Shown in pieces: positions 1 to 54,598 of a DNA stretch of 64,000 bases. Every line of letters begins with the position of its first letter. The stretch's first letter is position 1. This DNA comes from an uncultured Alphaproteobacteria bacterium. Lineage in GTDB: Bacteria > Pseudomonadota > Alphaproteobacteria > HIMB59 > GCA-002718135. The stretch lies in the NCBI GenBank assembly GCA_902595425.1, contig CACJPV010000001.1, positions 124,001 to 188,000 on the forward strand. The letters are read 5' to 3'. The position numbers were made by a program, and so were the translations under genes. Under the pieces are notes generated by a model. That model worked only from the letters and a program-made list of their open reading frames with translations. It was not told the DNA's origin and did not search any database.

Positions 1-85
1 GTACAGGATCACGCCATTGTCTGTCCCAACTTTTTTGGCCAGTAAAACCATTTTTAAATACATTCCAGGCATTAAAACGTGTCAT
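1..85 (-). CDS. soxB: Sarcosine oxidase beta subunit, N-terminus only (runs off the window)
   Basis: Reading the minus strand from the ATG at 85 gives 28 codons beginning MTRFNAWNVFKNGF and containing WDRQWRDP before the window edge. This matches the conserved N-terminal leader of the beta subunit of heterotetrameric sarcosine oxidase, a pattern like MxRFxAxxLxxxxLxGxxxWxxxWRxP just ahead of the FAD-binding GxGxxG motif, which lies outside the window. The enzyme oxidises sarcosine to glycine and a C1 unit. It diverges from the reductase gene at 238. Only the leader is visible, so the call rests on a short match recalled from memory. Confidence 0.65.
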   Translation of the reverse strand, partial: MTRFNAWNVFKNGFTGQKSWDRQWRDPV

Positions 86-237: not shown

Positions 238-1239
238 ATGACAACTACCGATTTATCCCTGGAAGAAATATATAACTTAGCCTTAAAAACACTCAAATTT
301 AATGGATGTGATGATCTTAACGCAGAAGCTGTTGCCCATACAGTAACGAATGCGGAAAAAGATGGAAGTGTATCCCACGGACTTTTTAGAATTCCTGGAT
401 ATATTGCTTCTTTAAAAAGTAAAAAAGTTAAAGGTGATGCACGGCCAAAAAATAATTATCTAACTCAAAACGCAATAAGAGTGGAAGGTGATTATGGATT
501 CGCCCCAACTGCTATTGGTGTAGGAATTCCAGCTTTAGTAGAGGTTACAAAAAAACATGGTGTAGGTGTTTTAACTATTACTAATACTCACCACTTTGCT
601 GCTTTATGGCATGAGACCGAGGCTTTAGCAGAAAATGAATTAATTGGCATTGCATGTACTGCTTACAAACCAAGTGTTGCACCCGCTGGTGCAAAAAAAC
701 CATTATTTGGAACTAATCCAATTTCCTTTGCTTGGCCAAGAAAAAATAAAACTCCTGTAGTTTATGATATGGCAACTTCAACAATGGCGATGGGTGAAGT
801 ACAAGTTGCTGCAAGAGATGGTCATAAAGTTCCATTCGGTACTGGATTAAATAAAGATGGTGAAAAAACAGATAATCCTTCTGAAATAGCTAATGGAGGA
901 GTTCTATTAACTTTTGGTGATTATAAAGGATCTGCGATTGCCATGATGATAGAGTTATTAGCAGCTGGATTAGTTGGTGACTTATTTAGTTTTGAAGCAA
1001 AAGAGGCTGACAATAATGATGGTGGTCCTGCACGAGGTGGTGAATTTATAATGGCACTATCTCCAGAATTAATTGCAGGTAATAATTGGAATGATCATGC
1101 AGAAAAATTTTTTGAACAAATGAAATCGCTTAAAGGTGTAAGACTACCTGGTGAGAGAAGACATAAAAATCGTTTAGATACTGGTTCAAGAAGTATTAAT
1201 ACAGAGTTAGTAAATAAAATTATTTCACTATCAGAATAA
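238..1239 (+). CDS. Ldh2/malate dehydrogenase-2 family reductase, likely Δ1-pyrroline/Δ1-piperideine-2-carboxylate reductase (DpkA-like)
   Basis: A 333-aa NAD(P)H-dependent oxidoreductase of the Ldh2 family, which does not have a classical Rossmann fold. Landmarks are GSVSHGLFRIPGY near residues 43-55, NTHHFAALWHETE near 115-127, PLFGTNPISFAWPR, and a DYKGSAIAMMIELLAAG segment. The THHFAALW and FGTNPI blocks fit the DpkA/LhpD subgroup, which reduces cyclic imino acids such as Δ1-pyrroline-2-carboxylate to proline, better than malate or lactate dehydrogenases. It starts at ATG 238 behind AGAGGAA. It is convergent with a proline-racemase-family gene only 5 bases away, and that family includes hydroxyproline dehydratases that make the same cyclic imine. 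Substrate is inferred; ketogulonate or lactate reductases are alternatives. Confidence 0.75.
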   Translation: MTTTDLSLEEIYNLALKTLKFNGCDDLNAEAVAHTVTNAEKDGSVSHGLFRIPGYIASLKSKKVKGDARPKNNYLTQNAIRVEGDYGFAPTAIGVGIPALVEVTKKHGVGVLTITNTHHFAALWHETEALAENELIGIACTAYKPSVAPAGAKKPLFGTNPISFAWPRKNKTPVVYDMATSTMAMGEVQVAARDGHKVPFGTGLNKDGEKTDNPSEIANGGVLLTFGDYKGSAIAMMIELLAAGLVGDLFSFEAKEADNNDGGPARGGEFIMALSPELIAGNNWNDHAEKFFEQMKSLKGVRLPGERRHKNRLDTGSRSINTELVNKIISLSE

Positions 1240-1244
1240 AAGTA

Positions 1245-2267
1245 TTAGAGATCTGGCCAGGTATCATTAAGTCTGTAGCCTTCAGGAAAAGGGTCTTTTT
1301 TCGAAACATAAAATTCTTGTTTACCTGTAATAAACGCTGAACCTTTAATTTGGGGTTTAATCATTTTTTTACCATTACTGTTAAATTCTTCTTTTATTTT
1401 TGTTTCAAATGTAGATCCAATAATTGATCTAGAAATAAATGTTTCATTTATATCTATCTCTTTTTTTTCTCTCATAAGTGCAAGCCTAGCTGATGTTCCA
1501 GTCCCACATGGAGATCTATCTAATTTACCAGGTCTAATACTAACTGTATTCCATCCTTCTTTTTGATTTAGATTATTTATTTTGACAGGTTCAATAAATT
1601 GACAGAATGAAATATAGTTTAAAGATGGGAGTGTAGGGTGAGAAAAACCAAACTCATTATTTGCAATTTTTATTATTTCCTTAGATATTTCAACAAATTT
1701 TTTTGCATTCTTAGGTTCAATTGTTAGGTTAAAATCTTTTGCATTGCAAATTATAAATGTATCTCCTCCAAATACAGTACTGACTGTTATTTCTCCAAAA
1801 TTTTGTGATTTAAGTTTAACATCTAATAAATCAACAAAAGATGGGAGATTTTCTATTTCTACCGATTGTACACAATTATTTTTTACTTCAGCTTTTATTG
1901 ATATTAAACCTCCAGGTGCTTCAAGAATAAATTCACTTAAAGGTTCAGTAGATTGAATTATTTTTTTTTCTAATAAAACGGTTGCAACACAAATACTGTT
2001 TGAGCCACTCATTGGTGGATTATCTTCTGGCTCCATAATGATGAAGCCTGCAGATGCTTTCGTATTTTTTGGAGGAACAATTAAATTACAATGTTTAAAA
2101 ACCCCACCTCTTGGCTCATTTAATACAAAATTTCTCAGTTTTTTATTATCAAATAAATATTTCGATTGTTCAAATATTGTCTCACCCTCTAATTTGATAT
2201 CACCTGAGACAATAACATCCCCTATTTCCCCACAACAGTGAGTATTATAAACTTCAATGATTGGCAT
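1245..2267 (-). CDS. Proline racemase superfamily protein, Ser/Cys type (likely 4-hydroxyproline 2-epimerase or related)
   Basis: A 340-aa protein with the superfamily's HCCGEIGDVIVSG N-terminus and the C-terminal active-site block DRSPCGTGTSARLA. The first catalytic position, normally the Cys of an MCGH motif, is Ser here (MSGSNSI), so the acid/base pair is Ser/Cys. In this superfamily Cys/Cys enzymes are proline racemases or hydroxyproline epimerases, Cys/Thr enzymes are trans-3-hydroxyproline dehydratases, and Ser/Cys enzymes have been linked to 4-hydroxyproline epimerase activity (from memory). It is the last gene of the eight-gene operon; its ATG overlaps the upstream stop as TAATG. Exact substrate is uncertain. 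Confidence 0.82.
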   Translation of the reverse strand: MPIIEVYNTHCCGEIGDVIVSGDIKLEGETIFEQSKYLFDNKKLRNFVLNEPRGGVFKHCNLIVPPKNTKASAGFIIMEPEDNPPMSGSNSICVATVLLEKKIIQSTEPLSEFILEAPGGLISIKAEVKNNCVQSVEIENLPSFVDLLDVKLKSQNFGEITVSTVFGGDTFIICNAKDFNLTIEPKNAKKFVEISKEIIKIANNEFGFSHPTLPSLNYISFCQFIEPVKINNLNQKEGWNTVSIRPGKLDRSPCGTGTSARLALMREKKEIDINETFISRSIIGSTFETKIKEEFNSNGKKMIKPQIKGSAFITGKQEFYVSKKDPFPEGYRLNDTWPDL

Positions 2268-3415
2268 TAAATAATAAGATCCTCAATTTTTTTTGAAAAA
2301 TTTGTAATTTGCTCATAACCATCTTCAGTAATGATGAAACTGTCACCAACTTGAGCACGAAATGTTTCTTCATTTGCAGATCCATCAACAGCAAAAACCA
2401 TACCTGGTTGTAATATAGTTTTATTACCTGCTACTAATTGCGGCTCTTCTAACATGCTAAAACCAGTAGCTCTTCCACATCTAAATGTCGGATATGGATA
2501 GCCTGCACTTTGAATAGTGTCCGCATAAGCTGCATGCACATCTTCAGCTTTCACACCTGGACCTAAAACACTTAAAGCTGCTTTTTGAGAATGAACAGCT
2601 GTTTCGTAAGTTTTAATTTGCGTTTTATTACGAATTTCTTTTAGCCAAAATGTTCTATCAAAACCAAGTTTAAATTTATGAAAGTTTGTCATACCACAAA
2701 AACACAAAAAAACAGGGTCTCCATCCTTGATTAATTTTATTGAGGATCGGTGGTGAGTTTTAGGCAGGTCTTTTCCTGAAGCCATAATTTGCAAAAAGTG
2801 AATTAGAGGTGATATATCACTTTCTTTAAATTCATTTTCTAATATCTCAGCAGCTTTTCTTGTTCCTGCTTGAGCAGTTGCTAACGCTACTTCATATTCA
2901 GGAACATTGTGTCCAATTGCATTTTTTCCAGCATACATCATAGCTTCTGCGACTTTGCCAGCAGACTTGGCAATTTTTAGCTCATCTTGAGTTTTAACCA
3001 TTCTTATTAAGTCTAAAATTGGAGTAATATTTTTAAATATCCTTTGTTCATATAGAGATGATACGTAATTTAATACTAGAGTACTAATCTTAAATTTTTC
3101 AATTGCTATATTTGTATTTTTTTTAAAATACTTTGGGAGTTCTTCTCTCCATTCATTGTCAACACCATCGTTCCATGTGACTATTTTATCAACAGGACAG
3201 TTTTTCTTTACTAAATGTGCATCAATCAGAGGCGTAATTAAAACTGTATCTGAATCTTTTGGAACTAATAGAATAGTTGGTCTTCCAAAAGACATATGAA
3301 GAAAATCAAAGTAACCTGTGAAATAATAAATAGAGTCATCATCAGTAATTACAGCTAAATCAATATTATTCTTATTGAGATCTTGCTTTAATTTTTCAAG
3401 ATTTTTTTTAAACAT
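2267..3415 (-). CDS. M24 (creatinase/Xaa-Pro aminopeptidase fold) hydrolase, creatinase-like
   Basis: A 382-aa two-domain pita-bread-fold protein. It shares blocks with bacterial creatinase recalled from memory: SFGRP at 42-46 (the creatinase substrate-binding Arg region) and VPEYEVALATAQA in mid-protein. The dinuclear metal ligands of true M24 metallopeptidases are not evident, as in creatinase. Several creatinase catalytic positions also appear changed: the GHSFG block is GRATG, and Glu seems replaced by Asp in GFDRTF and in FAVDG. It may therefore act on a different C-N bond. In eut/doe loci the M24 protein is ectoine hydrolase (EutD/DoeA), and this gene occupies a comparable place but does not read like EutD. 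It begins 21 bases after the M20 gene. Confidence 0.7.
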   Translation of the reverse strand: MFKKNLEKLKQDLNKNNIDLAVITDDDSIYYFTGYFDFLHMSFGRPTILLVPKDSDTVLITPLIDAHLVKKNCPVDKIVTWNDGVDNEWREELPKYFKKNTNIAIEKFKISTLVLNYVSSLYEQRIFKNITPILDLIRMVKTQDELKIAKSAGKVAEAMMYAGKNAIGHNVPEYEVALATAQAGTRKAAEILENEFKESDISPLIHFLQIMASGKDLPKTHHRSSIKLIKDGDPVFLCFCGMTNFHKFKLGFDRTFWLKEIRNKTQIKTYETAVHSQKAALSVLGPGVKAEDVHAAYADTIQSAGYPYPTFRCGRATGFSMLEEPQLVAGNKTILQPGMVFAVDGSANEETFRAQVGDSFIITEDGYEQITNFSKKIEDLII

Positions 3416-3436: not shown

Positions 3437-4594
3437 TTATATTTTCAATTGTTGTTCAGCAAGCTCTACCCAATAAGAAGAGCCTTTAACTAATAACTCG
3501 TCATTAAAATCATAATCTGCTGAATGTAGTGGCCTTCCATATGAACCTGAGGTTCCATTACCCATTAATACAAAACATCCAGGAGTATTCTCTGACATAA
3601 TTGAAAAATCCTCTGAAAAAGGTCTTGGATCAATGTCGCCATTACATTTATCTTCACCTAATAAGGTGATTGCAGCTTTTGTGGCTGCATCTGATTGTTT
3701 TGGCTGATTAAAAGTCATTGGGCAAGTTGTTTCATATTTTACTTCAGCTGAAACTCCAAAAGAATTACAGATACCTTCAACAAGTTGTCGCATATTTTTT
3801 TCAATCATTGTGTTTGTATCTTGAGAAAATGCTCTCGCATCTCCTTTGATCAAACCATTACCAGGCAAAACATTTTTTTTTCCATCAGTAATAAACTCAG
3901 TCACAGAAACAACTCCAGCTGCTACTGGATCTAATTTACGTGAGACAATTGTTTGTAAAGCTAATATTATTTGACTACCAATTGTAATTGTATCTTTTGA
4001 CATATGAGGTAAAGCGGCATGACCTCCCTTACCTTTAATTAAAATTTCAAATAAATTTTCACTAGTGGTAATGCCTCCTTTTCTTGTTCCGAATGTTCCT
4101 AATTCCATTCCAGGTATGTTGTGCATTCCATAAACTTCATCTATTGAAAAATTAATAAACAAACCTTCCTCAATCATTGTTTTGGCCCCAAGGGTATTTT
4201 CTTCATCTGGTTGAAAGATAAAATAAACAGTGCCATCAAAATTTCCTTGTTCTGCTAAATATTTTGCAGCACCTAATAACATCGTTGTATGTCCATCATG
4301 ACCACAAGCATGCATTCTATTTTCAATCTTAGATTTATAAGAAAAAGTATTTATTTCATGTATTGGTAAAGCGTCCATATCGGCTCTAATACCTATACTT
4401 TTATTACTACTTCCTTTTTTTAAAACACCCACTACTCCAGTTTTAGCAATTCCTTGATGCACTTCTACCCCAAAATCTTTCAGCAAGGTAGCTACTTTAT
4501 TTGAAGCATATTCTTCTTCAAAACTTATTTGGGGATGCATGTGCAAATCATGTCTCCACTCAACCAACTGATTGTGAAGTCCTTGTGTTTTCAT
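3437..4594 (-). CDS. M20 family amidohydrolase (N-acyl amino acid deacylase, HipO/AbgB/DoeB2-like)
   Basis: A 385-aa cytoplasmic metallo-amidohydrolase that splits an N-acyl group from an amino acid. The metal and catalytic blocks are present: RADMDALP at 70-77, MHACGHDGHTTM with Cys97 and His99, QPDEEN with the catalytic Glu pair near 131-132, and YGMHN with His158. The length is usual for M20D enzymes such as hippurate hydrolase. In ectoine operons a deacetylase of this kind (DoeB2) removes acetyl from N-acetyl-diaminobutyrate, so a similar deacylation step fits here. It lies 4 bases downstream of the PLP-enzyme gene. Substrate is inferred from context only. Confidence 0.85.
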   Translation of the reverse strand: MKTQGLHNQLVEWRHDLHMHPQISFEEEYASNKVATLLKDFGVEVHQGIAKTGVVGVLKKGSSNKSIGIRADMDALPIHEINTFSYKSKIENRMHACGHDGHTTMLLGAAKYLAEQGNFDGTVYFIFQPDEENTLGAKTMIEEGLFINFSIDEVYGMHNIPGMELGTFGTRKGGITTSENLFEILIKGKGGHAALPHMSKDTITIGSQIILALQTIVSRKLDPVAAGVVSVTEFITDGKKNVLPGNGLIKGDARAFSQDTNTMIEKNMRQLVEGICNSFGVSAEVKYETTCPMTFNQPKQSDAATKAAITLLGEDKCNGDIDPRPFSEDFSIMSENTPGCFVLMGNGTSGSYGRPLHSADYDFNDELLVKGSSYWVELAEQQLKI

Positions 4595-4598: not shown

Positions 4599-6041
4599 CT
4601 ATAGAGAATTAAACTCTTTAATTTTCGGATCAAGTGAAATCATATCTTTGTAATGCTTATCCCAGAATGATTGACTTCTTCTACTTTCAAATTCGTCTAT
4701 ACTAGTTCCTTGTTGTTCAACCCATGTATAATAACCTAAATTAAATATTCTCTCTTTATCAATTTGGCTTAATTCTAAAGTATGATCAACAGTTATTGCT
4801 TCAAAATTTTTAGCAAAAATTTCTGCACAAGTTACCTCGTCATAAATTTTGTTAAATTGTTTTTTCGTTTTCTCTAGTTCTGTTTCATATAAATCAGCAC
4901 CATCAGTTGCTACTGTTATAATAGCATCGTTTTTTGATAACTTCATTTTTTTAGCAAGTTTTATAGAAGCAATAATATTAGCAATTGAAGAAAACCCAAA
5001 TTCGGGTAATCTATTTACAAAATCTTTTTCAAATCCTTTTCTACTTTCTAAATATTTTTTTCCTTCATTAGTATTAAACAATAGATTTAAATTATTTGTA
5101 GCCTCATCTGATACGCCAACTACAAAATCTGAATTCATGACATTATGAATTAAGGGTACATGCTTATCTCCAATACCTTGGATGTTATGCTCTCCATAAC
5201 CATTATAAAGAAGAGTTGGGCATTCAATTGCTTCAACAACTGCTATTTTTGTATTGAGATTTTCTTTTAGATAATCCCCCGCTGCAAGTGTTCCACTTGA
5301 ACCAGAAGCTGAAACATAAAATCTAGCTTGTAAATTTGTATTTCCTTTTACCTTTAAAAAAGATTTTTCAAAGGATGAACCTGTAATAGCTCGATGAGTT
5401 GCATAATTATAATATTCATTAAATTGATTAATAATGTCATTATTTTTATTTTTTTTTAGCTCGTTGCATGCATCATAAATTTCTTTAACATTACTTTCAG
5501 TACCTTTTGTTTTAATTATATCATTTTTATCTTCTACCCATTTTTCAAGCCAATTAAATCTTTCCTGACTCATGCCTTCAGGTAAAATAGCAATACTTTT
5601 TAATCCAAGTATTTTTGAAATTGCCACCCCTCCTCGACAATAATTACCAGTTGATGGCCATACGGCTTTATGTTTTGAATAATCAAATGAACCATTTAAA
5701 ATTCGTGGAAGCAAGCATCCATATGCAGCTAATACTTTATGAGCTGTAATTAGTGGAAAATATCGACCTAGATTGACAATAATTTTTGCATCAACGCCTG
5801 TAAATTCACTAGGTAAAACGATATGCTCTGGGACATCTAAAAAATTACTATGATCTCGTTGATTAAACCAGTGTACTCTAAATAAATTAGCTGGATCCAT
5901 TGCATCTTTGTCTAGAGTTAAAACTTTATTTTTAATTTCTTCACTAATTAAATTAGGATTTTTCAATTCGGCTATTGTTGGAAGAATAACACCTTTTCCT
6001 CTAAAATAAGCCGCAGTTTTTTCTACAATACTTGAATTCAT
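4599..6041 (-). CDS. Fold-type II PLP-dependent enzyme of unknown substrate (cysteine synthase/threonine dehydratase superfamily), 480 aa
   Basis: The layout is that of a beta-family PLP enzyme: a likely Schiff-base lysine in PLITAHKVLAAYG (Lys102), a substrate loop STGNYCRGG at 130-138, the ILPEGMSQERF helix that aligns with LTMPETMSLERR of cysteine synthases, and a Gly/Ser-rich phosphate loop SASGSSGTLA near 244-253. At 480 residues it is about 150 longer than cysteine synthase or threonine dehydratase, with an N-terminal extension before the lysine and an extended C-terminus. I do not recognise a characterised member. It could be an ammonia-lyase or beta-replacement enzyme acting beside EutB. 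It starts 30 bases after eutC. Confidence 0.75.
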   Translation of the reverse strand: MNSSIVEKTAAYFRGKGVILPTIAELKNPNLISEEIKNKVLTLDKDAMDPANLFRVHWFNQRDHSNFLDVPEHIVLPSEFTGVDAKIIVNLGRYFPLITAHKVLAAYGCLLPRILNGSFDYSKHKAVWPSTGNYCRGGVAISKILGLKSIAILPEGMSQERFNWLEKWVEDKNDIIKTKGTESNVKEIYDACNELKKNKNNDIINQFNEYYNYATHRAITGSSFEKSFLKVKGNTNLQARFYVSASGSSGTLAAGDYLKENLNTKIAVVEAIECPTLLYNGYGEHNIQGIGDKHVPLIHNVMNSDFVVGVSDEATNNLNLLFNTNEGKKYLESRKGFEKDFVNRLPEFGFSSIANIIASIKLAKKMKLSKNDAIITVATDGADLYETELEKTKKQFNKIYDEVTCAEIFAKNFEAITVDHTLELSQIDKERIFNLGYYTWVEQQGTSIDEFESRRSQSFWDKHYKDMISLDPKIKEFNSL

Positions 6042-6071
6042 AATTTTTTATTACTAGAATACGATCTATAC

Positions 6072-7055
6072 CTATTCTATATTCATTCCTAGATTTTTAT
6101 TTTTAGCAATTGAGTAAGTGTAACGGGCAATCGCAGTATCTTGAACTCCAGTTCCAGTTAAATCAGCCACAGTAATGTCGTTATTACTTTTTCTTCCAAG
6201 TTCTGGATTTAAAATAATTTTTCCTAAATCATAAAATAATGTTTCCTTTGTTATAAGATTTTTTTTAATAGCGTGATTTAGCTCTCCTAAAATCGTTGTT
6301 TGAGCCTGATTATCTGGAACATAAATATCACAATTTTTTATTATTTCTGGATCTAACTCATTTTTTTCCTCTGCATCAGATCCCATTGCCGTAATATGGA
6401 TGCCTTTAGGTAAGGAAGAAAATTTAATAAGAGGATTTTTACTGGGAGTAGTTGTGATTAAAATATCGACATCTTTGACTAGATCATGAGTATTATCAAA
6501 TGCTTGAAAATTAAAATCATAGATTTTTTTTAAAGTTTTTATGAAGTCATTAGTCTTATTAATATCCCTTGACCAAACTTTTACATTTTTTATGTCCCTA
6601 ACTAAAGAAAGAGCCTCAAGTTGCATACGCGCTTGTATACCAGCTCCAATTATTGCAAGTGTAGAAGATTCTGGATTAGATAAATATTTCGAAGCAATTG
6701 CACCCGCAATAGCAGTTCTCACATCAGTTAAATATCCTTTATCTAAAAGTACAGATTTGATAATTCCTGTTTGAGAGTCTAAAAGAATCATTAAACCATT
6801 ACTAGATGGCAAACCTAATTTTGAATTATTAAAAAATCCTGAAGCAACTTTCACTGCAAAACTATCTAAACCTTCAACATAAGCTGCCTTTACATCTGAC
6901 TCACCATGATATTTTTCTATATCAACTCTTAATATTGGTGGCATAACTGTTTTTCCCAGTGATAAACTTTTAAATGCATCTTCAATTATAGGAATAAGAT
7001 CTTTATTAAATTTTACACAATGCTTTATTTCATTTGAATTGAGTACAAGTGTCAT
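6072..7055 (-). CDS. eutC: EutC, ornithine cyclodeaminase/mu-crystallin family (hydroxyectoine utilisation)
   Basis: A 327-aa NAD(P)-binding protein. It matches EutC of ectoine/hydroxyectoine loci over long stretches: MPPILRVDI near 40, AYVEGLDSFAVKVASGFF, KLGLPSSNGLMILLD, LLDKGYLTDVRTA and the nucleotide-binding AIIGAGIQARMQLEAL. The ornithine cyclodeaminase family also includes iminosuccinate and pyrroline-2-carboxylate reductases, so EutC probably reduces an imine made by the EutB dehydratase; this is inference. Its start overlaps the eutB stop by 4 bases, so the pair is translationally coupled. Confidence 0.85.
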   Translation of the reverse strand: MTLVLNSNEIKHCVKFNKDLIPIIEDAFKSLSLGKTVMPPILRVDIEKYHGESDVKAAYVEGLDSFAVKVASGFFNNSKLGLPSSNGLMILLDSQTGIIKSVLLDKGYLTDVRTAIAGAIASKYLSNPESSTLAIIGAGIQARMQLEALSLVRDIKNVKVWSRDINKTNDFIKTLKKIYDFNFQAFDNTHDLVKDVDILITTTPSKNPLIKFSSLPKGIHITAMGSDAEEKNELDPEIIKNCDIYVPDNQAQTTILGELNHAIKKNLITKETLFYDLGKIILNPELGRKSNNDITVADLTGTGVQDTAIARYTYSIAKNKNLGMNIE

Positions 7056-8002
7056 GAAATTATTTTATTAAAAAGTTCAGCATCGATATTTCCACCACAT
7101 ATTAAACTAATAATATTTTTACCAATTTTATCAGACATATTATCTTTCACTACCATAACACCTGTAGCAGCAGCCCCTTCTGTTACAATTTTATGTTCAA
7201 TAAAATTAAATTTTATACCTTCAGCAATTTTATTTTCACTTATTAGAACAAAATCATCAATCACATCTTGAGCTATTTTAAAAGTATATTGATTATCTAA
7301 GCCTATGCTTCCACCCAAGCAATCAGCCAAAGTTTCTAATTCTTCAACATCTGTTGGTTTACCATTTTTTAAACTTTCATACATGGAGGGTCCTCTTTCC
7401 ATTGAAACAGCAATTATTTTCACAGATGGTTTTTGTAATTTAATAGCTAAAGCAATTCCTCCAATTAATCCACCACCAGAAGTAGGAATGATAACAGTAT
7501 CTACCTCAGGAAAATCTTCTAACATTTCTAAACCCACAGTTCCTTGACCTGCAATTACCTCTTCATCATCAAAAGGATGGATTAATGTGATATTTTTTTC
7601 TTTAGCGAGTTTTTTTGCATACAAGTCAGCTTCATCACTATTATTTCCAATAATTTCAACTTTAGCACCTAATGCTTCAATTGCTTCTTTACGGTATTGA
7701 GGAACCATTGAAGACATATAAATTGTGGATTGAATTCCAAGAACACTTGCAGCATAAGCAACACCCTTACCATGATTGCCTGTTGAGACAGCAATAACAC
7801 CTTTTTGTTTTTGCTCATTATCTAAAGACAATAATTTATTTGTCGCACCTCTTAATTTAAAGGAGTTAGTAATTTGAAGTGACTCTAACTTTAACTTAAC
7901 AATTCTATCCTTAGATAAATAATTTGATAATATTAATGGAGTCCTATTTATATAGGGAGAAATAGCTTCATGTGCTTTTTTAATTTTTTCTAAATTAATC
8001 AA
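7052..8002 (-). CDS. eutB: EutB, threonine dehydratase-like PLP enzyme (hydroxyectoine utilisation)
   Basis: A 316-aa fold-type II PLP enzyme. The Schiff-base lysine is in TNSFKLRGA, the substrate loop is STGNHGKG, the phosphate loop is TSGGGLIGG, and LADCLGGSIGLDNQYTF is a block I associate with EutB rather than with general threonine dehydratase (IlvA), whose C-terminal regulatory domain is also absent. The reaction is expected to be elimination of water from a beta-hydroxy amino acid, giving an enamine or imine for EutC. It lies between eutA and eutC. A serine/threonine racemase or hydroxyaspartate dehydratase is the main alternative. Confidence 0.85.
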   Translation of the reverse strand: MINLEKIKKAHEAISPYINRTPLILSNYLSKDRIVKLKLESLQITNSFKLRGATNKLLSLDNEQKQKGVIAVSTGNHGKGVAYAASVLGIQSTIYMSSMVPQYRKEAIEALGAKVEIIGNNSDEADLYAKKLAKEKNITLIHPFDDEEVIAGQGTVGLEMLEDFPEVDTVIIPTSGGGLIGGIALAIKLQKPSVKIIAVSMERGPSMYESLKNGKPTDVEELETLADCLGGSIGLDNQYTFKIAQDVIDDFVLISENKIAEGIKFNFIEHKIVTEGAAATGVMVVKDNMSDKIGKNIISLICGGNIDAELFNKIIS

Positions 8003-8038: not shown

Positions 8039-8791
8039 TCAGTTAATAAATAATTTACCATATCCCTTTATTTTTGAATCAATACCAACTGACCTTAAGC
8101 AATCCCATATAATAGCCTGATTACTCGATATTACTATAGTATTTTGAGAGCTCTCAACTCTGTCCAATACATCAACAATTTTAAGGGCAGTGCAGGAAAC
8201 AAACAATCCATCAACATTACTTAGGTCTATTTTTTTAATCTCTTTTTCCAAGCTAGATAAACTTACTTGAGCAATTTCAGAGTCATATTCTAAATTAAAT
8301 GAACTAAAAGACTCAATATTAATATTATTATCAATTAAATAATTATAAACAGTTACATTTACATCTTTTGGATAAGGAGTTAGAACTGCAATATTTTTTA
8401 AACCCAAATGATTAAAAGCTTTTAATGCTGCTGTTATTGGAGTTGTGACTTTGGCTTTAGGTTTGGTTTTATTGATCTCTTCTTTTATTCTATCTAAGCC
8501 AATAGCAATTGTTCCAGATGTACATCCGTATGCAATAATATCTACGTCCTGCGATGGTAAAATTTGTGAAGAAACTTCACTAATATGATTTGCCATTTTC
8601 AAATAATTTTCATGATTTAATGGATTTTCAAAAGGTATACGATTAACAAAAATATCAACAGGGATTGAGTGACAGATATTTCTATAATCTTGTTCAATAG
8701 TAAAATCTGTTGATAAAGCTATTACTCCTATTCTTGGATTATTCGTTTTAACAATGTCTGCAGTTAAATCATGCTGTGTAAAATTATTCAT
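8039..8791 (-). CDS. eutA: EutA, Asp/Glu racemase superfamily protein (hydroxyectoine utilisation)
   Basis: A 250-aa protein of the arylmalonate decarboxylase/maleate isomerase/Asp-Glu racemase fold. The two expected catalytic cysteines are in IIAYGCTSGTIAIG and LFVSCTALKI. The blocks RIGVIALSTDFT, ENYLKMANHI and VTTPITAALKAFNHLG agree with EutA proteins of ectoine clusters. No characterised reaction is certain for EutA. With EutB and EutC it is linked to processing of the hydroxylated solute. Its start overlaps the amidinotransferase stop by 4 bases, and 36 bases separate it from eutB. Confidence 0.82.
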   Translation of the reverse strand: MNNFTQHDLTADIVKTNNPRIGVIALSTDFTIEQDYRNICHSIPVDIFVNRIPFENPLNHENYLKMANHISEVSSQILPSQDVDIIAYGCTSGTIAIGLDRIKEEINKTKPKAKVTTPITAALKAFNHLGLKNIAVLTPYPKDVNVTVYNYLIDNNINIESFSSFNLEYDSEIAQVSLSSLEKEIKKIDLSNVDGLFVSCTALKIVDVLDRVESSQNTIVISSNQAIIWDCLRSVGIDSKIKGYGKLFIN

Positions 8792-9894
8792 GGTTGATTA
8801 GGAAAATAATCTTCACATTCACCTTCTCTATAAACATCAGTTGTTGCGCAATGAAGACTACCACCAAAAGCATAGGCATCTCGAAAAGGAACAGGAATAA
8901 CATCCATTCCAAAACCCTCCATTTGCTTAATCATTTTTTCCTCAGAAGCTTCAACACAAATTGTTTTAGGGTTTAAAATTAATACATTCATAGATAGCCA
9001 AATTGATGAGTAACACATAGGAGGTGGAGAATTATGGATTGATGGAGCAGCTTCATGAATTTCCCATTTATTATCATCAAAAATTTTTCTTTGCTCATTT
9101 GATATTTTTCTATTTGGATTAATAATCATTAACCCTGGTTTAATTGGTGTAAAACATGCATCAATGTGCGTTGGAATTAAATCTCCAGGTAAATTAATTT
9201 GATGAACACGGTGTTTTGGAAAATGTCTTTTTAACCAATTTAATCCTTTTAAATTTGATGTAAAATTATTGTGATAGAATAAATCTTTTCCAAAACGCAG
9301 TACCTCTGCAGCATCAAAAAGAGGCTCTTGCTCAGTTAAGATCATATCTCTATCTTCAATTTTTTTATGTCTTTCTTCTTCAGTAATACCTTCGGGTAAA
9401 TAATTTTTTTTATAACTTTCTAAAGTTAAACGCGGTTTAGGAGCTGACTCCCAACGCATATTAGGGTCTTCATCATAATATTTTTCAAGGAGAGGCCTGT
9501 ATGCAAGATACTCAAACCAGCGACAACGATAAGACATTGGTGCTTCTAGCATCTCATTTCCAACTGTTAAGATAACATCTCTTGGTGGCATCGATCCAAA
9601 TTGACCGTCATTATTCCAATCAGGAGTAGCAATTGCTTTTGTAAAATCAATTGGAGTTGGTCGATCAACTCTAACATTATTGGCTTCAAGAATTTTTATA
9701 AAATTTTCAAGTTGAATATTTGCTTTCTCAATCGACTCTTGACTCCTCGGTCCGTGTGAGCCAACCATACCGCTGTCTTTGCTAATTTTAGGTTCTAATG
9801 CCGGTTCCATAGGAGGGACGTTTGAATTTTCAACAGTACCTACAATGACATGTTTAAGTGGATCCCATTCATTCCAAGAGTTAACTATTGTCAT
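8788..9894 (-). CDS. Arginine:glycine amidinotransferase family protein (AGAT/StrB1-like)
   Basis: A 368-aa guanidino-transferring enzyme that moves an amidino group through a covalent Cys intermediate. The catalytic triad of human AGAT is conserved: Asp194 in LFDAAEVLRFGKDLF, His243 in PTHIDACF, and Cys349 in GGSLHCATTDV. The segments GLNWLKRHFPKHRVH and KPGLMIINPNR also align with the human enzyme. THID rather than the vertebrate MHID suggests a different acceptor pocket, as in bacterial members. The gene heads the eut-like operon and is coupled to eutA. Acceptor and donor are unknown; the reaction would release ornithine if arginine is the donor. Confidence 0.88.
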   Translation of the reverse strand: MTIVNSWNEWDPLKHVIVGTVENSNVPPMEPALEPKISKDSGMVGSHGPRSQESIEKANIQLENFIKILEANNVRVDRPTPIDFTKAIATPDWNNDGQFGSMPPRDVILTVGNEMLEAPMSYRCRWFEYLAYRPLLEKYYDEDPNMRWESAPKPRLTLESYKKNYLPEGITEEERHKKIEDRDMILTEQEPLFDAAEVLRFGKDLFYHNNFTSNLKGLNWLKRHFPKHRVHQINLPGDLIPTHIDACFTPIKPGLMIINPNRKISNEQRKIFDDNKWEIHEAAPSIHNSPPPMCYSSIWLSMNVLILNPKTICVEASEEKMIKQMEGFGMDVIPVPFRDAYAFGGSLHCATTDVYREGECEDYFPNQP

Positions 9895-9961: not shown

Positions 9962-11413
9962 ATGGAACTTAAAAATAATGCACTTTTCAAAGAAAATTGT
10001 CTAATCGGTGGTAAATGGATTGAAAGCAACTCTGGTGAAAAAATTGATGTAGACAATCCCGCAAATGGTGAAATTATTGGTAAAGTTCCTAAATGTTCAA
10101 CATCTGAAACTAGTAAGGCAATTGATGAGGCTCAAAAAGCTTTTCCTGCATGGAGAGATAAAACTGCAAAGGAAAGATCTGTAATACTCCAAAAATGGGC
10201 AAGATTAATTGAAAATAATGTTGATGATTTGGCAAAAATTATGACAGTCGAGCAAGGAAAACCTTTGGCTGAAGCAAAAGGTGAAATTTTAATGGGAGTA
10301 ACATATATTGATTTTTATGCAGAAGAAGGAAAAAGGGTTTACGGTGATATCATTCCTGATCCAATGCCTGATAGAAGAATAGTTGTTATTAAACAACCAG
10401 TTGGTGTTGTTGGAGCAATTACACCTTGGAATTTCCCTAGCACAATGATTACCAGAAAATGTGCCCCTGCACTTGCTGTAGGTTGTACTGTTGTAATAAA
10501 ACCTGCTAGTCAAACTCCTTATTCAGCGCTTGCACTTGGAGTTTTGGCAAAAGAAGCTGGGTTTCCTGATGGTGTTATAAATATTATCACAGGATCAGCA
10601 GGTGCTATTGGTAAAGAATTAACAGAGAACCCCATCGTAAGAAAAATATCATTTACAGGTTCAACAGAAGTTGGAAAAATTCTTTTACAACAAAGTGCTT
10701 CTACAGTGAAAAAAGTTTCAATGGAATTAGGGGGTCATGCACCATTTGTAGTATTTGATGATGCAGATATTAATGAAGCAGTTACAGGAGCTATGCAAAG
10801 TAAGTTTAGAAATTCAGGTCAGACCTGTATCTGTGCCAACAGAATTTTTGTTCATGAAAAAGTTTATGATGATTTTTTAAATAAATTTATTCAGGAAGTT
10901 AATAAAATAAAAGTTGGCAATGGTTTGGATGAAGGTATTGCATCTGGACCCCTTATTGATCAACCATCTCTTATAAAAGTACATGATCAAGTAAAAGATG
11001 CTGTTAATCAAGGTGCAAAAATTGCCGTAGGGGGAGATGTACATCCACTAGGAGGTAACTTTTATCAACCAACAATTCTCTCAGATGTTACTACAAAAGC
11101 AAAAATTACATATGAAGAAACTTTTGGTCCTGTTGCTCCTTTGTACAAGTTTAAAACAGATGAAGAAGTAATTAAGCTTGCGAATGATACGCCTTATGGC
11201 CTTGCATCATATTTTTACTCAAGAGATATAGGTAGAATATGGAGAGTGGCAGAGGCACTTGAATATGGAATGGTTGGTGTTAATACAGGACTAACAACTA
11301 AAGCAGAAATACCTTTTGGTGGAGTTAAAGAATCAGGTCTTGGAAGAGAAGGTTCTCGCTATGGTCTTGATGATTATTTAAACATAAAATATATTTCAAT
11401 GGCCGGTATTTAA
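9962..11413 (+). CDS. gabD: NAD(P)-dependent succinate-semialdehyde dehydrogenase-like aldehyde dehydrogenase (GabD family)
   Basis: A 483-aa aldehyde dehydrogenase. The cofactor block PWNFPSTMITRKCAPALA is near 157, the general-base Glu is in SMELGGHAPFVVF, and the catalytic Cys is in SGQTCICANRIFV. These blocks and the length match GabD, which oxidises succinate semialdehyde to succinate. In ectoine pathways a related enzyme (DoeC) oxidises aspartate semialdehyde, so in this neighbourhood it could take a semialdehyde from the divergent operon. It starts at ATG 9962 behind AAGAGGAAGT. Its TAA and the TAA of the convergent ROK gene share the four bases TTAA. Confidence 0.88.
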   Translation: MELKNNALFKENCLIGGKWIESNSGEKIDVDNPANGEIIGKVPKCSTSETSKAIDEAQKAFPAWRDKTAKERSVILQKWARLIENNVDDLAKIMTVEQGKPLAEAKGEILMGVTYIDFYAEEGKRVYGDIIPDPMPDRRIVVIKQPVGVVGAITPWNFPSTMITRKCAPALAVGCTVVIKPASQTPYSALALGVLAKEAGFPDGVINIITGSAGAIGKELTENPIVRKISFTGSTEVGKILLQQSASTVKKVSMELGGHAPFVVFDDADINEAVTGAMQSKFRNSGQTCICANRIFVHEKVYDDFLNKFIQEVNKIKVGNGLDEGIASGPLIDQPSLIKVHDQVKDAVNQGAKIAVGGDVHPLGGNFYQPTILSDVTTKAKITYEETFGPVAPLYKFKTDEEVIKLANDTPYGLASYFYSRDIGRIWRVAEALEYGMVGVNTGLTTKAEIPFGGVKESGLGREGSRYGLDDYLNIKYISMAGI

Positions 11414-47451: not shown

Positions 47452-50208
47452 TTAGATTATCTTTTCAATTTTTGCTGCGCAATACTTAAATTCTGGAATT
47501 TTTCCATATGGATCAAGTGCTGGATTTGTGAGTAAATTTGCTGCTGCTTCATTATAACAAAATGGAATAAATATAACACCTTCTGGAATAGCCCTATCTT
47601 CCCTTACTCTGATTTTTATCGAACCTCTTCTTGTGGATACTCGTATTTCATCGCCTGGTCTCATATTATTTTTTAAAATTTCATTTGGTGATATTGAAAC
47701 TGTTGCCTCTGGTTCTATTGCATCTAGATTAGATGCTTTTCTAGTCATTGCCCCGGTATGCCAATGTTCGAGCTGCCTTCCTGTAGTTAATATTAAAGCA
47801 AACTCATCATCAGGTAATTCATTTGGAGAGGTAACACTTGCTGGGACAAATTTACCTCTACCATTATCGTTTGGAAATTTATCACCAAAAACAATTTCGT
47901 CTCCAGGACTAGTGGGTGATTTACTTGGATATGTTACAGAGTTTTCATGCTCAAGCCTGTCCCAAGAAATATTATTTAGAGAAGGCATGGTTTTACACAT
48001 CTCATCATATATTTCTTTAGGATGTTTGTAATCCCAGTTTAAACCCAACCTTTTTCCAAGTTCATTTGTAATCCACCAATCCTCTTTAGCTTTACCAGGT
48101 GCATTGAGAGCCTTTCGTCCCATTTGAACTTGTCTATTAGTATTAGTCACTGTACCATTCTTTTCAGGCCAAGCTGATGCAGGAAATATAACATCAGCAT
48201 AAGTAGCGGTTTCTGTTAAAAATATATCTTGAACAACTAAGTGATCTAACATTTGTAATGCTTCTCTTGCATGATTTAGATCAGGATCTGACATTGCTGG
48301 ATTTTCACCGAGTATATACATACCTTTTATTATTTTTTCATGAATAGCATCCATAATTTCAACTACAGTTAAACCTTTTTTATCATCTAAAGATGTGTGC
48401 CAAAAATTCTCAAAAAATTCTTTTTTTTCATCTTTTTCAACTAATTGATAATCTGGGTACATCATTGGAATTAATCCTGCATCTGAGGCACCCTGAACAT
48501 TATTTTGTCCTCTTAGTGGATGAAGTCCTGAACCTCTTCTGCCTACATTACCTGTCATGAGTGCAAGAGAAATTAGACATCTTGCATTATCAGTTCCATG
48601 AACATGCTGAGAAACTCCCATTCCCCAAAAAATTATACCTTTATTAGTTTTAGCAAATAATCTTGCGACCTCGCGTATCATATCAGCATCAATCCCTGTT
48701 TGATCTTGCATTAATTCTGGAGGATAATTTTTAAGATGTTTTTTGAGTTCATCAAAACCAGATGTTTGCTTTTTTATGTATTCTTCATTAAATAAATTTT
48801 CTTCTATAATGACATTCATAATAGAATTAAGAAGTGCAACGTCTGAACCAGGTTTAAATTGCAACATATGAGTAGCGTGTTTTTTTAGAGAATGACCTCT
48901 TGGGTCCATTACAATTAATTTAGATCCATTTTTTGCAGCGTTTTTAAAAAAAGTTGCGGCAACTGGATGATTTTCAGTAGGATTTGCTCCAATAACAATG
49001 ATAACATCAGAATGCTGCACCTCATAAAAAGGTGCGGTAACTGCACCTGAACCTATTGTTTCTAACAATGCTGCTACTGAAGAGGCATGACAAAGACGTG
49101 TACAGTGATCTACATTATTTGTATTAAAACCAGTCCTTATAAGTTTTTGAAAGAGATATGCTTCTTCGTTAGAGCATTTCGCAGAGCCAAAACCAGCTAA
49201 ATTACTTTTGCCATTTCTCTTCTTTTTAATTTCTAGAAAGCCATTTGCAGCATAATCAAGAGCTTCTTCCCAAGAAGCTTCTCTAAAGTACTCATGCATA
49301 TTAGAAAAATTAATACTAGGATGTAAATCTTTTTCTTTTCCTCTAATTCTAATTAGAGGTTTGGTAAGTCTTTCTGGATTACTTACATAATCAAAACCAA
49401 ATCTGCCCTTTACACAAAGTCTATTTTTATTTGCAGGTCCATCAATTCCGTTAACGTATTTAATGTCGTTGTCTTTAACATTATATTCTATCTGACAGCC
49501 TACTCCACAATAAGGACAAACACTATTAACTTTTTTTTCAACTTTGCTGTGACCAACTCCTTCCTTGTCTACTATACTAGAAGGCATCAAAGCGCCCGTT
49601 GGACAAGCTTGGACACATTCACCACAAGCAACGCAGGTGCTGTCACCCATAGGATCATCAAAATCAAAAACTATTTTTGAGCTTTCTCCTCTATATGCCA
49701 TTCCAATAACATCATTAACTTGAACCTCTCTACAAGCTCTAACACAAAGATTACATTGGATGCATGCATCTAAATTAACAGCCATACTTGGGTGTGAACT
49801 ATCAGCTTGGCATGGAGTTTTTTTTGGAAAGCGGCTCTCTTTAATTTCAACTTTATCAGCCCAATTCCAAAAATGAGAATTACTATCATGAGCTACTTCT
49901 CTCTCTGGTTGATCTGCTAAAAGTAATTCGAAAACTAACTCTCTTGATTTTTTTGCTTTGTCAGAATTAGTTCTAACCTTCATATTGGGAGTTGGTTTTC
50001 TTACACATGACGCAGCTAAAACCCTTTCACCATCAATCTCAACCATGCAGGCTCTACAATTTCCATCAGCTCTATAGCCAGGTTTATTAGCATAGCACAG
50101 ATGAGGTATTTCAGTGCCTAATCTATTCGCAGCTTGCCAAATTGTTTCATCCTTATTAGCTTCAACTTGCTTATCATTAAGATAAAAACTAACTTTTTTA
50201 TCAGTCAT
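47452..50208 (-). CDS. fdhA: NAD-dependent formate dehydrogenase alpha subunit (Mo/W-bis-pterin)
   Basis: A 918-aa catalytic subunit oxidising formate to CO2. An N-terminal NuoG-like part carries a [2Fe-2S] site (CYANKPGYRADGNCRACMVE), then two ferredoxin-like clusters (CIQCNLCVRACREVQ, CVACGECVQACPTGA), then the pterin domain's [4Fe-4S] CPYCGVGCQIEY. The metal-ligand Cys is in VDHCTRLCHASSVA, so it is a Cys, not selenocysteine, enzyme. No Tat signal is present, so it is cytoplasmic. The ATG at 50208 overlaps the fdhB stop as ATGACTGA and is preferred over an upstream TTG at 50226. Confidence 0.95.
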   Translation of the reverse strand: MTDKKVSFYLNDKQVEANKDETIWQAANRLGTEIPHLCYANKPGYRADGNCRACMVEIDGERVLAASCVRKPTPNMKVRTNSDKAKKSRELVFELLLADQPEREVAHDSNSHFWNWADKVEIKESRFPKKTPCQADSSHPSMAVNLDACIQCNLCVRACREVQVNDVIGMAYRGESSKIVFDFDDPMGDSTCVACGECVQACPTGALMPSSIVDKEGVGHSKVEKKVNSVCPYCGVGCQIEYNVKDNDIKYVNGIDGPANKNRLCVKGRFGFDYVSNPERLTKPLIRIRGKEKDLHPSINFSNMHEYFREASWEEALDYAANGFLEIKKKRNGKSNLAGFGSAKCSNEEAYLFQKLIRTGFNTNNVDHCTRLCHASSVAALLETIGSGAVTAPFYEVQHSDVIIVIGANPTENHPVAATFFKNAAKNGSKLIVMDPRGHSLKKHATHMLQFKPGSDVALLNSIMNVIIEENLFNEEYIKKQTSGFDELKKHLKNYPPELMQDQTGIDADMIREVARLFAKTNKGIIFWGMGVSQHVHGTDNARCLISLALMTGNVGRRGSGLHPLRGQNNVQGASDAGLIPMMYPDYQLVEKDEKKEFFENFWHTSLDDKKGLTVVEIMDAIHEKIIKGMYILGENPAMSDPDLNHAREALQMLDHLVVQDIFLTETATYADVIFPASAWPEKNGTVTNTNRQVQMGRKALNAPGKAKEDWWITNELGKRLGLNWDYKHPKEIYDEMCKTMPSLNNISWDRLEHENSVTYPSKSPTSPGDEIVFGDKFPNDNGRGKFVPASVTSPNELPDDEFALILTTGRQLEHWHTGAMTRKASNLDAIEPEATVSISPNEILKNNMRPGDEIRVSTRRGSIKIRVREDRAIPEGVIFIPFCYNEAAANLLTNPALDPYGKIPEFKYCAAKIEKII

Positions 50209-51904
50209 ATGAAATCTCTTTTGCAAAATATTTTAATACGGAATTTAGTGGATTAGTTGCAGCCTGACCTAAACCACAAATCGAAGCTTGCGCCATGACT
50301 TCAGATAAATCACTTAATTTTTGCTTGTTCCAAATCTTTTCTTTCATAAGTTTAACAGTTTTTTCTGTTCCAACTCTACATGGAGTGCATTGACCACAAC
50401 TCTCTTCTTCAAAAAATTTTAATAAATTTAGAGCAACATCTTTCATGCTATCTTTATCAGACAAAACGACAATGGCGGCAGAACCTAAAAAACATCCAAG
50501 ATCAGCCAAATCTTTAGAACCATAATCAAGGGGAATATTATTCATCTCAGCCGGTAATATTCCACCAGAAGCTCCCCCTGGAAGGTATCCTTTAAATATA
50601 TGACCTTCCTGCATTCCTTCACAATATTCATTAATCAATTGTTGAATTGTAATTCCAGCAGGAGCAACTTTTACACCTGGATTTTTCACTCGCCCTGAAA
50701 CAGAAAAGCTATGAAATCCCTTGTTTCCATTAAGTCCTTTATCTGCAAACCATTTGGATCCTTTTTCTAAAATATCACGAACCCAAAAAAGTGTTTCTAA
50801 GTTATTAGTGAGTGTTGGTTTGCCAAATAAACCAACTTCTGCAACATATGGTGGTCTATGTCGTGGCAAACCCCTCTTGCCTTCGATACTTTCTATCATT
50901 GCAGACTCTTCTCCACAAATATAAGCTCCAGCACCTCGTCTTAAAATAAAGTGTCCTTTTGATACAATTTCTTCATTTTCTAACTTTAGAATTTCATCAC
51001 TTAGAATTTTAATTACAGAAGGATATTCGTCTCTCATATAAATATATACATTTGATGCTTTAAGAAATAATGATGCAATGAGAGCACCTTCTAAAAATCT
51101 ATGGGGATCTCTTTCAAGATAAGTTCTATCTTTAAATGTACCTGGTTCACCTTCATCTCCATTAACCGCTACATATTTTTTTCCATTATATTTTGAAACA
51201 ATTTCCCATTTCATTCCTGTTGGAAAACCTGCTCCTCCTTTGCCCTTTAATCCACTATCTTTTAAAGTTTCTATAATATTATTATTGGATATTTCACCAT
51301 TACGAATTTGATTTACAATATTATATCCTCCATTTTTTTTATATTCATTTAATGAAATATAATTTGGAACTACCACTTCAAATCTATTTTCTTGAATTAC
51401 CTTTTCAACTTTAGATACTGAAGCATTGTCAACATAATTTTTACCAACACAAACAGTTGGAGCAACATCACATCTTCCCATACAAGGACCGGGCACAACT
51501 TTAATATTTTTATTTTCCGAAGATTTTAAATCTGAGAGTAATTTTTGTGCACCAAATAATTCACAAGTCAAACTTTCACAAACTCTTATAATTTTTATTG
51601 GCTCAAAGGTGTCTGAGTTTTTAACTATATTAAAATGTGCGTAAAATGTCGCTACTTCATAAATTTCTGAGAGAGGTAGATTAATAATTTCAGATAAAGC
51701 TACAAGATGCTTATCATATAGCACTCCAAAATTATCTTGTAATAAGTGTAAATATTCTATTAGTTCATCTCTTTTAAATCTTATTCCATGGAAAAGCTGT
51801 GAAACCTCTTCATAAAAACTATTTTCTATCTGCCTACCTTTTGGCCTCCATCTTCTCTTCTTTTTTTTCAAAGAGCTATCAGTTTGAGAAATAAATTTAT
51901 CCAT
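50201..51904 (-). CDS. fdhB: Formate dehydrogenase beta subunit, NuoE-NuoF fusion
   Basis: A 567-aa diaphorase subunit passing electrons from fdhA to NAD. Residues about 20-180 are NuoE-like with a [2Fe-2S] set (CESLTCELFGAQ and GPCMGRCDVAPTVCVG). From about 200 it is NuoF-like: GLKGKGGAGFPTGMKW, the NADH/FMN loop NGDEGEPGTFKDR, GAGAYICGEESA, and the [4Fe-4S] block ESCGQCTPCRVGT. Separate FdsG and FdsB are usual; the fusion resembles FDH1 of Methylobacterium, a tungsten enzyme (from memory). It diverges from tusA across 40 bases. Confidence 0.93.
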   Translation of the reverse strand: MDKFISQTDSSLKKKKRRWRPKGRQIENSFYEEVSQLFHGIRFKRDELIEYLHLLQDNFGVLYDKHLVALSEIINLPLSEIYEVATFYAHFNIVKNSDTFEPIKIIRVCESLTCELFGAQKLLSDLKSSENKNIKVVPGPCMGRCDVAPTVCVGKNYVDNASVSKVEKVIQENRFEVVVPNYISLNEYKKNGGYNIVNQIRNGEISNNNIIETLKDSGLKGKGGAGFPTGMKWEIVSKYNGKKYVAVNGDEGEPGTFKDRTYLERDPHRFLEGALIASLFLKASNVYIYMRDEYPSVIKILSDEILKLENEEIVSKGHFILRRGAGAYICGEESAMIESIEGKRGLPRHRPPYVAEVGLFGKPTLTNNLETLFWVRDILEKGSKWFADKGLNGNKGFHSFSVSGRVKNPGVKVAPAGITIQQLINEYCEGMQEGHIFKGYLPGGASGGILPAEMNNIPLDYGSKDLADLGCFLGSAAIVVLSDKDSMKDVALNLLKFFEEESCGQCTPCRVGTEKTVKLMKEKIWNKQKLSDLSEVMAQASICGLGQAATNPLNSVLKYFAKEISYD

Positions 51905-51944
51905 TTAAATTGAATTATTAATATATATTTTGTATCAGATTAAA

Positions 51945-52196
51945 ATGAAAGATTCAGTTGAAAATGATGAAATAATTCTTGATACGAGCGGTACAGAATG
52001 TCCCATCCCAGTATTGAAAGCAAGAAAACTTGCTCAAGAATTAAAAAATGGTGACATAATTAAAGTTATAGCAACTGACCCTCTCGCAAAAGCCGACTTT
52101 GAACATTATTGTTCACAATCAGGCTTTGATTTTCTTGAAAGTTATAATGAAGGTAAAAAATTAATAATAAAATATAGATTTCAAAATATTAATTAA
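51945..52196 (+). CDS. tusA: TusA-family sulfurtransferase
   Basis: An 83-aa sulfur carrier from the ATG at 51945 (the frame extends 15 bases upstream to a TTG, but family length favours the ATG). The active-site motif GTECPIPVLKARK carries the persulfide Cys. TusA proteins deliver sulfur for molybdenum cofactor and tRNA modification. Its place between formate dehydrogenase and moeA suggests a role in sulfurating the cofactor together with FdhD. The end overlaps the convergent moeA by 8 bases. Confidence 0.9.
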   Translation: MKDSVENDEIILDTSGTECPIPVLKARKLAQELKNGDIIKVIATDPLAKADFEHYCSQSGFDFLESYNEGKKLIIKYRFQNIN

Positions 52197-53406: not shown

Positions 53407-53888
53407 AAAAATTTATTTATAATAAATTCAGTTAAACTCTCAATATCATTCCTCTTAAACAAAGGTATATTAGATTTTATTTTCTCATCAGTAACAAAAG
53501 CAACTACATTTTTGATTTCATTATTAACGATTTTAGTGTTCTGACTTATTATTTCAATTTTCGGATGATTTTCTTTTTTAAAACCCTCAACTATAACAAC
53601 ATCTACATCAATAAATTCTCGCAACAATTCGTTAAGTTTTTTTTCATTTTTGTTATTATTTTCTATAATTTTTGACCAACGCTTAGAAGAGCTAATTATA
53701 ACTTCGCTAGCACCCGATTCTCGATGCTTAAAACTATCAGTTCCTGGTTTATCAATATCAAAATCATGATGAGCATGTTTTATCGTACCCACTTTGTATC
53801 CTCTTTTAACCAATAAATTGATTATCTTAGTTGCAAAAAAAGTTTTGCCAACATCTTTCCAACCTACTATGCCAATTACTTTTGTCAT
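53403..53888 (-). CDS. mobB: Molybdopterin-guanine dinucleotide biosynthesis adaptor protein MobB
   Basis: A 161-aa P-loop GTP-binding protein with GIVGWKDVGKTFFATKI at 6-22, YKVGTIKHAHHDFDIDKPGTDS, and VVIVEGFKKENHPKIE. It assists MobA in forming the bis-MGD cofactor used by both FdhA and SoeA in this window. It overlaps tupB by 4 bases at its start and moeA by 4 at its end. Confidence 0.94.
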   Translation of the reverse strand: MTKVIGIVGWKDVGKTFFATKIINLLVKRGYKVGTIKHAHHDFDIDKPGTDSFKHRESGASEVIISSSKRWSKIIENNNKNEKKLNELLREFIDVDVVIVEGFKKENHPKIEIISQNTKIVNNEIKNVVAFVTDEKIKSNIPLFKRNDIESLTEFIINKFL

Positions 53889-54574: not shown

Positions 54575-54598
54575 ATAAAGTTATTATCAGAATATATT

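Follow-up and report, generated by a model that had tools for sequence, protein, structure and literature searches.

A creatinase-like M24 protein of a marine alphaproteobacterium points to a third metal-free lineage beside creatinase and EutD/DoeA

Introduction

The M24 fold is shared by the Xaa-Pro dipeptidases and aminopeptidase P (M24B), which carry a set of metal ligands, by creatinase (EC 3.5.3.3; structures 1chm, 7yto and 1kp0), which has no such set, and by EutD/DoeA (6twk and 6yo9), which has an M24 amidine hydrolase fold, is paired with a deacylase and has Eut-type neighbors. Spt16 is a non-enzymatic protein of the same fold. In creatinase we take H232 to be the catalytic residue and F62 and R64 to bind the substrate; EutD/DoeA has no equivalent of R64. 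Part of one paper describes the cooperation of EutD with EutE, and the same part states that the reactions of EutABC are unknown (PMC8739950). Creatine degradation was predicted in 2024 for an AEGEAN169 clade, on the basis of eggNOG annotation checked with Pfam/TIGRFAM models (PMC11366302).

Here, we describe a gene of an abundant marine bacterium whose product is creatinase-like and differs from creatinase at positions that do not vary among the 17 creatinases compared. By its sequence the protein appears to belong to a third metal-free M24 lineage, marked by an Asp/Asp/Arg signature, that is conserved both within a marine operon and more widely among Alphaproteobacteria. We set this lineage against creatinase, EutD/DoeA and the M24B peptidases, and weigh what its substrate may be.

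Results and Discussion

The M24 gene lies in an operon of eight genes

The window, by which we mean the whole stretch of 64,000 nucleotides that was analyzed (G000:C1:124001-188000), comes from a draft genome of 1.49 Mb that is 84% complete, of a lineage that we take to be HIMB59/AEGEAN-169. The M24 gene is the seventh of eight minus-strand genes separated by gaps of -4 to 36 bases. The features of this region, in the order in which the operon is read, are as follows.

9962..11413, plus strand: succinate-semialdehyde dehydrogenase (TIGR01780, 716.7 bits, cut-off 646.35), a divergent neighbor retained in most relatives
8788..9894, minus strand: Arg:Gly amidinotransferase-like (AGAT-like) protein (1jdx, E 1.2e-74; SLHC, HIDA and FDAAE blocks)
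8039..8791, minus strand: EutA homologue of the arylmalonate decarboxylase family (206.7 bits to EutA, cut-off 318)
7052..8002, minus strand: EutB homologue (386.5 bits, cut-off 413)
6072..7055, minus strand: EutC homologue (PRK08291, 441.7 bits, cut-off 408; TIGR02992, 413 bits, cut-off 471.65)
4599..6041, minus strand: PLP fold-type II enzyme of 480 aa (PLP480), with weak cysteine-synthase-like matches
3437..4594, minus strand: M20 amidohydrolase (TIGR01891, 313 bits, cut-off 153.75; DoeB2, 308 bits, cut-off 550), HACGHDGH intact
2267..3415, minus strand: creatinase-like M24-fold protein, 382 aa, ATG start, with H221, D253, R315, D344, F43 and R45
1245..2267, minus strand: protein of the trans-3-hydroxyproline dehydratase/proline racemase family (435 bits, cut-off 550)
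238..1239, plus strand: Ldh_2 family dehydrogenase (Pfam, 289 bits)
1..85, minus strand: 5' end of soxB, sarcosine oxidase beta (TIGR01373, 600 bits, cut-off 529.45)

Past the operon and the divergent Ldh_2 gene the row continues with soxB, soxA, a soxG-like gene and a second M24 gene. The start codon of soxB is at window position 85 and its remainder lies past the window edge (gene G000:C1:122820-124085), as do soxA, soxG and the second M24 gene. The last of these, about 5 kb past the edge, encodes a homologue of EutD (463 bits, cut-off 613; 6twk, E 1.7e-110). The EutA, EutB and EutD homologues thus score below the NCBI equivalog cut-offs, and EutC above that of PRK08291 and below that of TIGR02992. 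Near-identical copies of the operon are found on contigs titled as uncultured Alphaproteobacteria or Pelagibacteraceae.

The earlier note on this DNA had placed the M24 gene in an island with an amidinotransferase and, at the window edge, soxB. Both genes and the linkage to sarcosine oxidase are borne out; that account left out the EutABC genes of the operon, the EutD homologue outside the window and the M20 gene, which proves to be the commonest partner (below).

A search for EutE (TIGR02994, cut-off 402.7) found no gene above the cut-off in 20 genomes of the order; two of these, including the window's own, gave weak matches (91 and 93 bits). The M20 protein is therefore the sole deacylase candidate in the operon. 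PLP480 could not be aligned to diaminopropionate lyases.

Although human AGAT structures match the AGAT-like protein at E 1e-74, neither Pfam nor NCBIfam gives a hit to it at E 0.001; a relative with 62% identity lies in locus L234 beside genes that we named by eye as MttB-like and DmdA/GcvT-like.

The M24 protein belongs to the creatinase-prolidase fold and to a lineage of its own

The M24 protein scores 70.1 bits against Pfam Creatinase_N (PF01321, cut-off 22) and 77.6 bits against Peptidase_M24 (PF00557, cut-off 23), and with a model Z of 40.8 to 1chm it is placed within the creatinase-prolidase fold. Its reading frame holds the blocks SFGRP (42-46) and VPEYEVAL (171-178), on which the earlier note had based the likeness to creatinase, and GRATG (314-318). 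Close relatives are publicly annotated as 'Xaa-Pro peptidase family protein'; against the EutD/DoeA model TIGR02993 the protein reaches 59.7 bits, far from the cut-off of 613.

Sequence scores and structural ranking order the relatives differently. In a single-sequence search of the PDB, prolidases come first (83 bits), creatinase 1chm is eighth (72.7) and EutD scores 38.8. A HMMER profile of the protein's own family (A1) matches 1chm over profile positions 4-375 (E 2.7e-25), and four prolidase chains score above it with a lead of no more than about 3 bits (95 versus 92 bits). The structure, in contrast, was predicted from a 44-sequence alignment with a pLDDT of 91.8 (an earlier 13-sequence model with a pLDDT of 51 was poor and was left out of the comparisons), and in the VIA structural ranking three creatinases stand ahead of the prolidases and EutD: 1chm at Z 40.8, 7yto at 40.2 and 1kp0 at 40.2, with the best prolidase at 38.7 and EutD at 37.7. 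The model fits 1chm with an rmsd of 2.5 across 368 residues. Because the input alignment held 15 creatinases, which may tilt the geometry towards creatinase, this ranking is supportive rather than independent; the Foldseek E-value order mixes prolidases with creatinases, with a prolidase at the top. The description of the protein as creatinase-like is supported, with a likeness over the whole length of the fold, but creatinases come first only in the structural ranking.

In a maximum-likelihood tree obtained by a quick search, the careful search being incomplete, 17 creatinases form one group (SH-aLRT 99) and the 32-member M24 lineage is separate from them, together with a sister group of about 40% identity (support 92). 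Identity to creatinase is about 27%. From these comparisons the M24 protein appears to represent a lineage distinct both from creatinase and from EutD, a homologue of the latter being present in the same gene row.

The sister group (L162:7992-9134, L163:7989-9134 and L234:8955-10172) shares the active-site signature, and its genes sit with ABC transporters of the polyamine type, joined in Rhizobium and Paraburkholderia by an amidase gene and racemase-like genes.

Active-site residues are changed with respect to creatinase, EutD and prolidase, and are invariant

Residues were compared in a multiple alignment of 55 rows in which 1chm (Pseudomonas putida creatinase), 6twk (EutD) and Pyrococcus prolidase served as references. 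The creatinase residues F62, R64 and H232 are kept as F43, R45 and H221, whereas E262 and E358 are replaced by D253 and D344, H324 is R315, and R335 stands opposite a gap; C298 and H376 are not kept either. The replacement of two glutamates by aspartate and of a GHSFG block by GRATG, both read from the sequence in the earlier note, is thus seen in the alignment to 1chm. E262, H324, R335 and E358 are retained throughout the 17 creatinase rows, of which one is from the PDB and the other 16 come from genomes of the class. EutD/DoeA, in turn, has residues at 262, 324 and 358 that differ from those of the M24 protein. The metal ligands of Pyrococcus prolidase, D209, D220, H284, E313 and E327, read C238, G251, R315, E323 and D344, so that four of the five are altered and only E313 is kept. 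With these four ligands changed, the protein is no Xaa-Pro peptidase with an intact metal site, and its description as a non-metal member of the family is supported.

The residues F43, R45, H221, D253, R315 and D344 are common to 32 of the 33 rows of the M24 lineage; the remaining row (C_40_L149, at a contig edge) was mis-extracted and is excluded from the counts. A wider survey of 118 loci, 9 of them duplicates, gave 109 distinct relatives, and H221, C238, G251, D253, R315, E323 and D344 are present in every one. Divided by identity, H221, D253, R315 and D344 occur in 96/96 relatives at 55% identity or above and in 13/13 at 35-55%, and F43 together with R45 in 94/96 (the other two lacking coverage there) and 13/13. 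The sharing of these residues by all 109 relatives points to an active site that is selected and uniform, not decayed.

An M20 hydrolase is the usual partner of the M24 gene

A genome scan found 344 relatives of the M24 gene, of which 80, mostly from the window's order, were retained. Of 20 loci fetched from the order, 19 have the M20 gene adjoining the M24 gene and soxB in the row; the one that departs from this, L061, lies on a contig of 3.6 kb, with a EutA-like gene ahead of the M24 gene. Outside the order 36 loci were examined, 33 of them distinct. The M20 gene adjoins the M24 gene in 14 of these and lies within the locus in 18, a EutA-like/AMDase gene is adjacent in 9, soxB is present in 7, and an Ehu-type ATPase and a Rieske oxygenase in 5 each. 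By frequency, then, the partners are the M20 deacylase followed by the EutA-like gene and soxB; M20, EutA-like and soxB genes are all absent nearby in 8 of the 33. On plasmids of Roseovarius and Aminobacter the row reads Lrp, binding protein, EhuC, EhuD, EhuA, LysR, M24, EutA-like, soxB, soxD. In L160 the gene for an EhuB-like protein (5895-6743) neighbors the M24 gene; carriers of the M24 gene include Roseovarius pelagicus HL-MP18 and Pseudophaeobacter sp. EL27.

The M20 proteins fall into subgroups. One, represented beside the M24 gene in L133, is 70-75% identical to the M20 protein that adjoins a diaminopropionate ammonia-lyase in Ruegeria and Shinella. This M24-linked subgroup and a diaminopropionate ammonia-lyase (282.7 bits, NCBI cut-off 276) are both present in the Aminobacter plasmid region. 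The M20 protein of the window falls into a second subgroup and shows 51-52% identity to those of L133, Ruegeria and Shinella.

Two loci on contigs titled Trichodesmium and Verrucomicrobiales (L123 and L100) carry the order's gene row with an M24 protein of 65% identity, and are probably mis-binned.

A proposed metal-free amidine or guanidine hydrolase coupled to the M20 protein

The reading that we favor, with moderate confidence, is that the M24 gene encodes a metal-free amidine/guanidine hydrolase, of a third lineage beside creatinase and EutD/DoeA, whose activity is coupled to that of the M20 protein. The slight lead of prolidases in the sequence scores and the outside loci that lack the usual partners speak against it. 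The fixed changes in catalytic residues, together with the M20 partner, indicate that the protein probably digests a nitrogen-rich small molecule other than creatine.

By analogy with creatinase and EutD, we infer hydrolysis by the M24 protein, the roles of its residues and its coupling to the M20 protein as follows. R45 and F43 would bind a small zwitterionic substrate by its carboxylate. The aspartates D253 and D344, which stand where creatinase has E262 and E358, would position the amidinium and activate a water molecule, while H221 would protonate the leaving nitrogen. The M20 neighbor suggests that the product may be an amino compound of N-acyl or N-carbamoyl type, or else an amine, handed on as EutD hands its product to EutE. 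The PLP enzymes and soxBDAG could then convert the skeleton into central metabolites.

A more specific version of this proposal, which we regard as distinctly unlikely in its details, would have the M24 and M20 proteins work together as a new hydrolase and deacylase, much as EutD and EutE do, on an undescribed osmolyte derived from 2,3-diaminopropionate, a five-ring cousin of ectoine, or on an N-methylated relative, whose amidine the M24 protein would open. The M20 protein would then free the diamino acid, from which pyruvate and ammonia would be formed by a PLP ammonia-lyase; any N-methyl group would be taken off by soxBDAG. That the AGAT-like protein acts in reverse, that PLP480 is a diamino-acid lyase and that N-methyl-diaminopropionate is the substrate are guesses. 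If the diaminopropionate-osmolyte reading is true, an abundant marine lineage and many Rhodobacteraceae use an unmeasured pool of dissolved nitrogen. Should the substrate be something other than creatine, mechanistic comparisons would gain a third metal-free M24 hydrolase, one that has an Asp pair.

Creatine is an unlikely substrate

The strongest of the alternatives, although we consider it unlikely, is that the protein still functions as a creatinase through an active site that has shifted; it would convert creatine to sarcosine and urea and leave soxBDAG to make glycine. The retained F62, R64 and H232, the sox genes of the row and the published prediction of creatine degradation would all agree with it. 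Against it, no correctly read member of the lineage has either glutamate, H324 or R335, and neither the EutA-like gene nor the M20 gene, the usual partner, has a role in the step from creatine to sarcosine.

The distribution of true creatinases also argues against this alternative. Full-length creatinases with 58-75% identity to 1chm are present in 16 of 190 genomes of the class, and they stand beside the M24 lineage in two genomes (G239 and G335) and beside the sister group of about 40% identity in three (G277, G319 and G343), so that the two kinds of protein are not orthologues. On residues, tree and this co-occurrence, we reject the M24 protein as a creatinase orthologue. In the window's order, none of 162 genomes has a creatinase above 30% identity, the best matches being the M24 lineage itself, which occurs at E 1e-60 or better in 75 of them.

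An association with urease would be a further sign of creatine use. Across the order urease is present in 44/75 carriers of the M24 gene and 21/87 non-carriers (p 1e-5), but within the genus the proportions are 43/68 and 20/34 (p 0.67), and shared ancestry is most likely the source of the order-wide signal. No urease was found in the window's own genome, at 84% completeness, and the link of the M24 gene to urea was dropped.

The absence of creatinases above 30% from the 162 genomes of the order weakens the prediction of creatine use, as it appears in the part of that paper cited here (PMC11366302). Our result likely conflicts with this prediction, although the gene counted is not named there. 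The portions of the open PubMed Central literature consulted otherwise tie no M24 gene to homarine or creatine in marine bacteria, and contain no description of the M24 lineage; the words ectoine, creatin and sarcosine are all absent from PMC10308909. If the substrate is not creatine, an ecological claim on nitrogen use in the surface ocean changes. From the earlier proposal of a non-metal hydrolase with a new specificity we retain the lost metal ligands, the Asp pair and the probable difference in specificity from true creatinases, with creatine kept as a substrate of low probability.

The ectoine-type context and other alternatives

Less probable than either the diaminopropionate or the creatine reading is that the protein serves (hydroxy)ectoine catabolism as a further enzyme beside EutD, with a hydroxylated or epimerised ectoine intermediate as its substrate. 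The EutABC homologues in the operon, whose counterparts have reactions stated as unknown in the cited part of PMC8739950, the nearby EutD homologue and the relation of the M20 protein to DoeB2 would fit such a role, as would L045, in which genes for EhuA (397.6 bits, cut-off 345.4) and EhuB (288.9 bits, cut-off 190.9) are inserted in the operon. No ectoine transporter genes were seen in the window's own operon, as judged from the open reading frames and the upstream row. The active-site residues of EutD are not common to the M24 lineage, and eutD lies beside the M24 gene in none of the 33 distinct loci outside the order. EutD is carried by 21/25 M24 carriers (mostly Rhodobacteraceae-type, f24) and 14/20 f24 non-carriers (p 0.30); with no significant rise in its carriage, these counts do not support a link with ectoine itself, and co-occurrence with EutD was set aside as a guide to function.

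A non-catalytic or regulatory protein, or a peptidase without the usual metal pair, is highly improbable: the loss of four metal ligands and the M24-fold relatives such as Spt16, at lower Z, would be consistent with it, but H221, D253, R315 and D344 are invariant and the gene sits in a tight operon with hydrolases, which together argue for a selected active site.

Several further features of these loci were observed. Transporter cassettes vary among relatives: in L045 (854-6777) EhuA/EhuB and Lrp genes separate eutC from the PLP gene, a place taken in L062 by a PotA-type transporter gene (at 3730), and in L043 (10336-14463) the dehydratase and Ldh_2 genes have a ProX-like betaine ABC set between them. 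In Pseudophaeobacter (L142:1017-5538), a trio of an Asp/Glu-racemase-like gene, an M24 gene with all five metal ligands intact and a dimethylglycine-dehydrogenase-like gene adjoins the parallel trio of an M24-lineage relative, a EutA-like gene and soxBDAG. Elsewhere in the window, at 47452-62327, lie genes that we named by eye from their translations as formate-dehydrogenase-like and other molybdopterin oxidoreductases, together with molybdenum cofactor genes.
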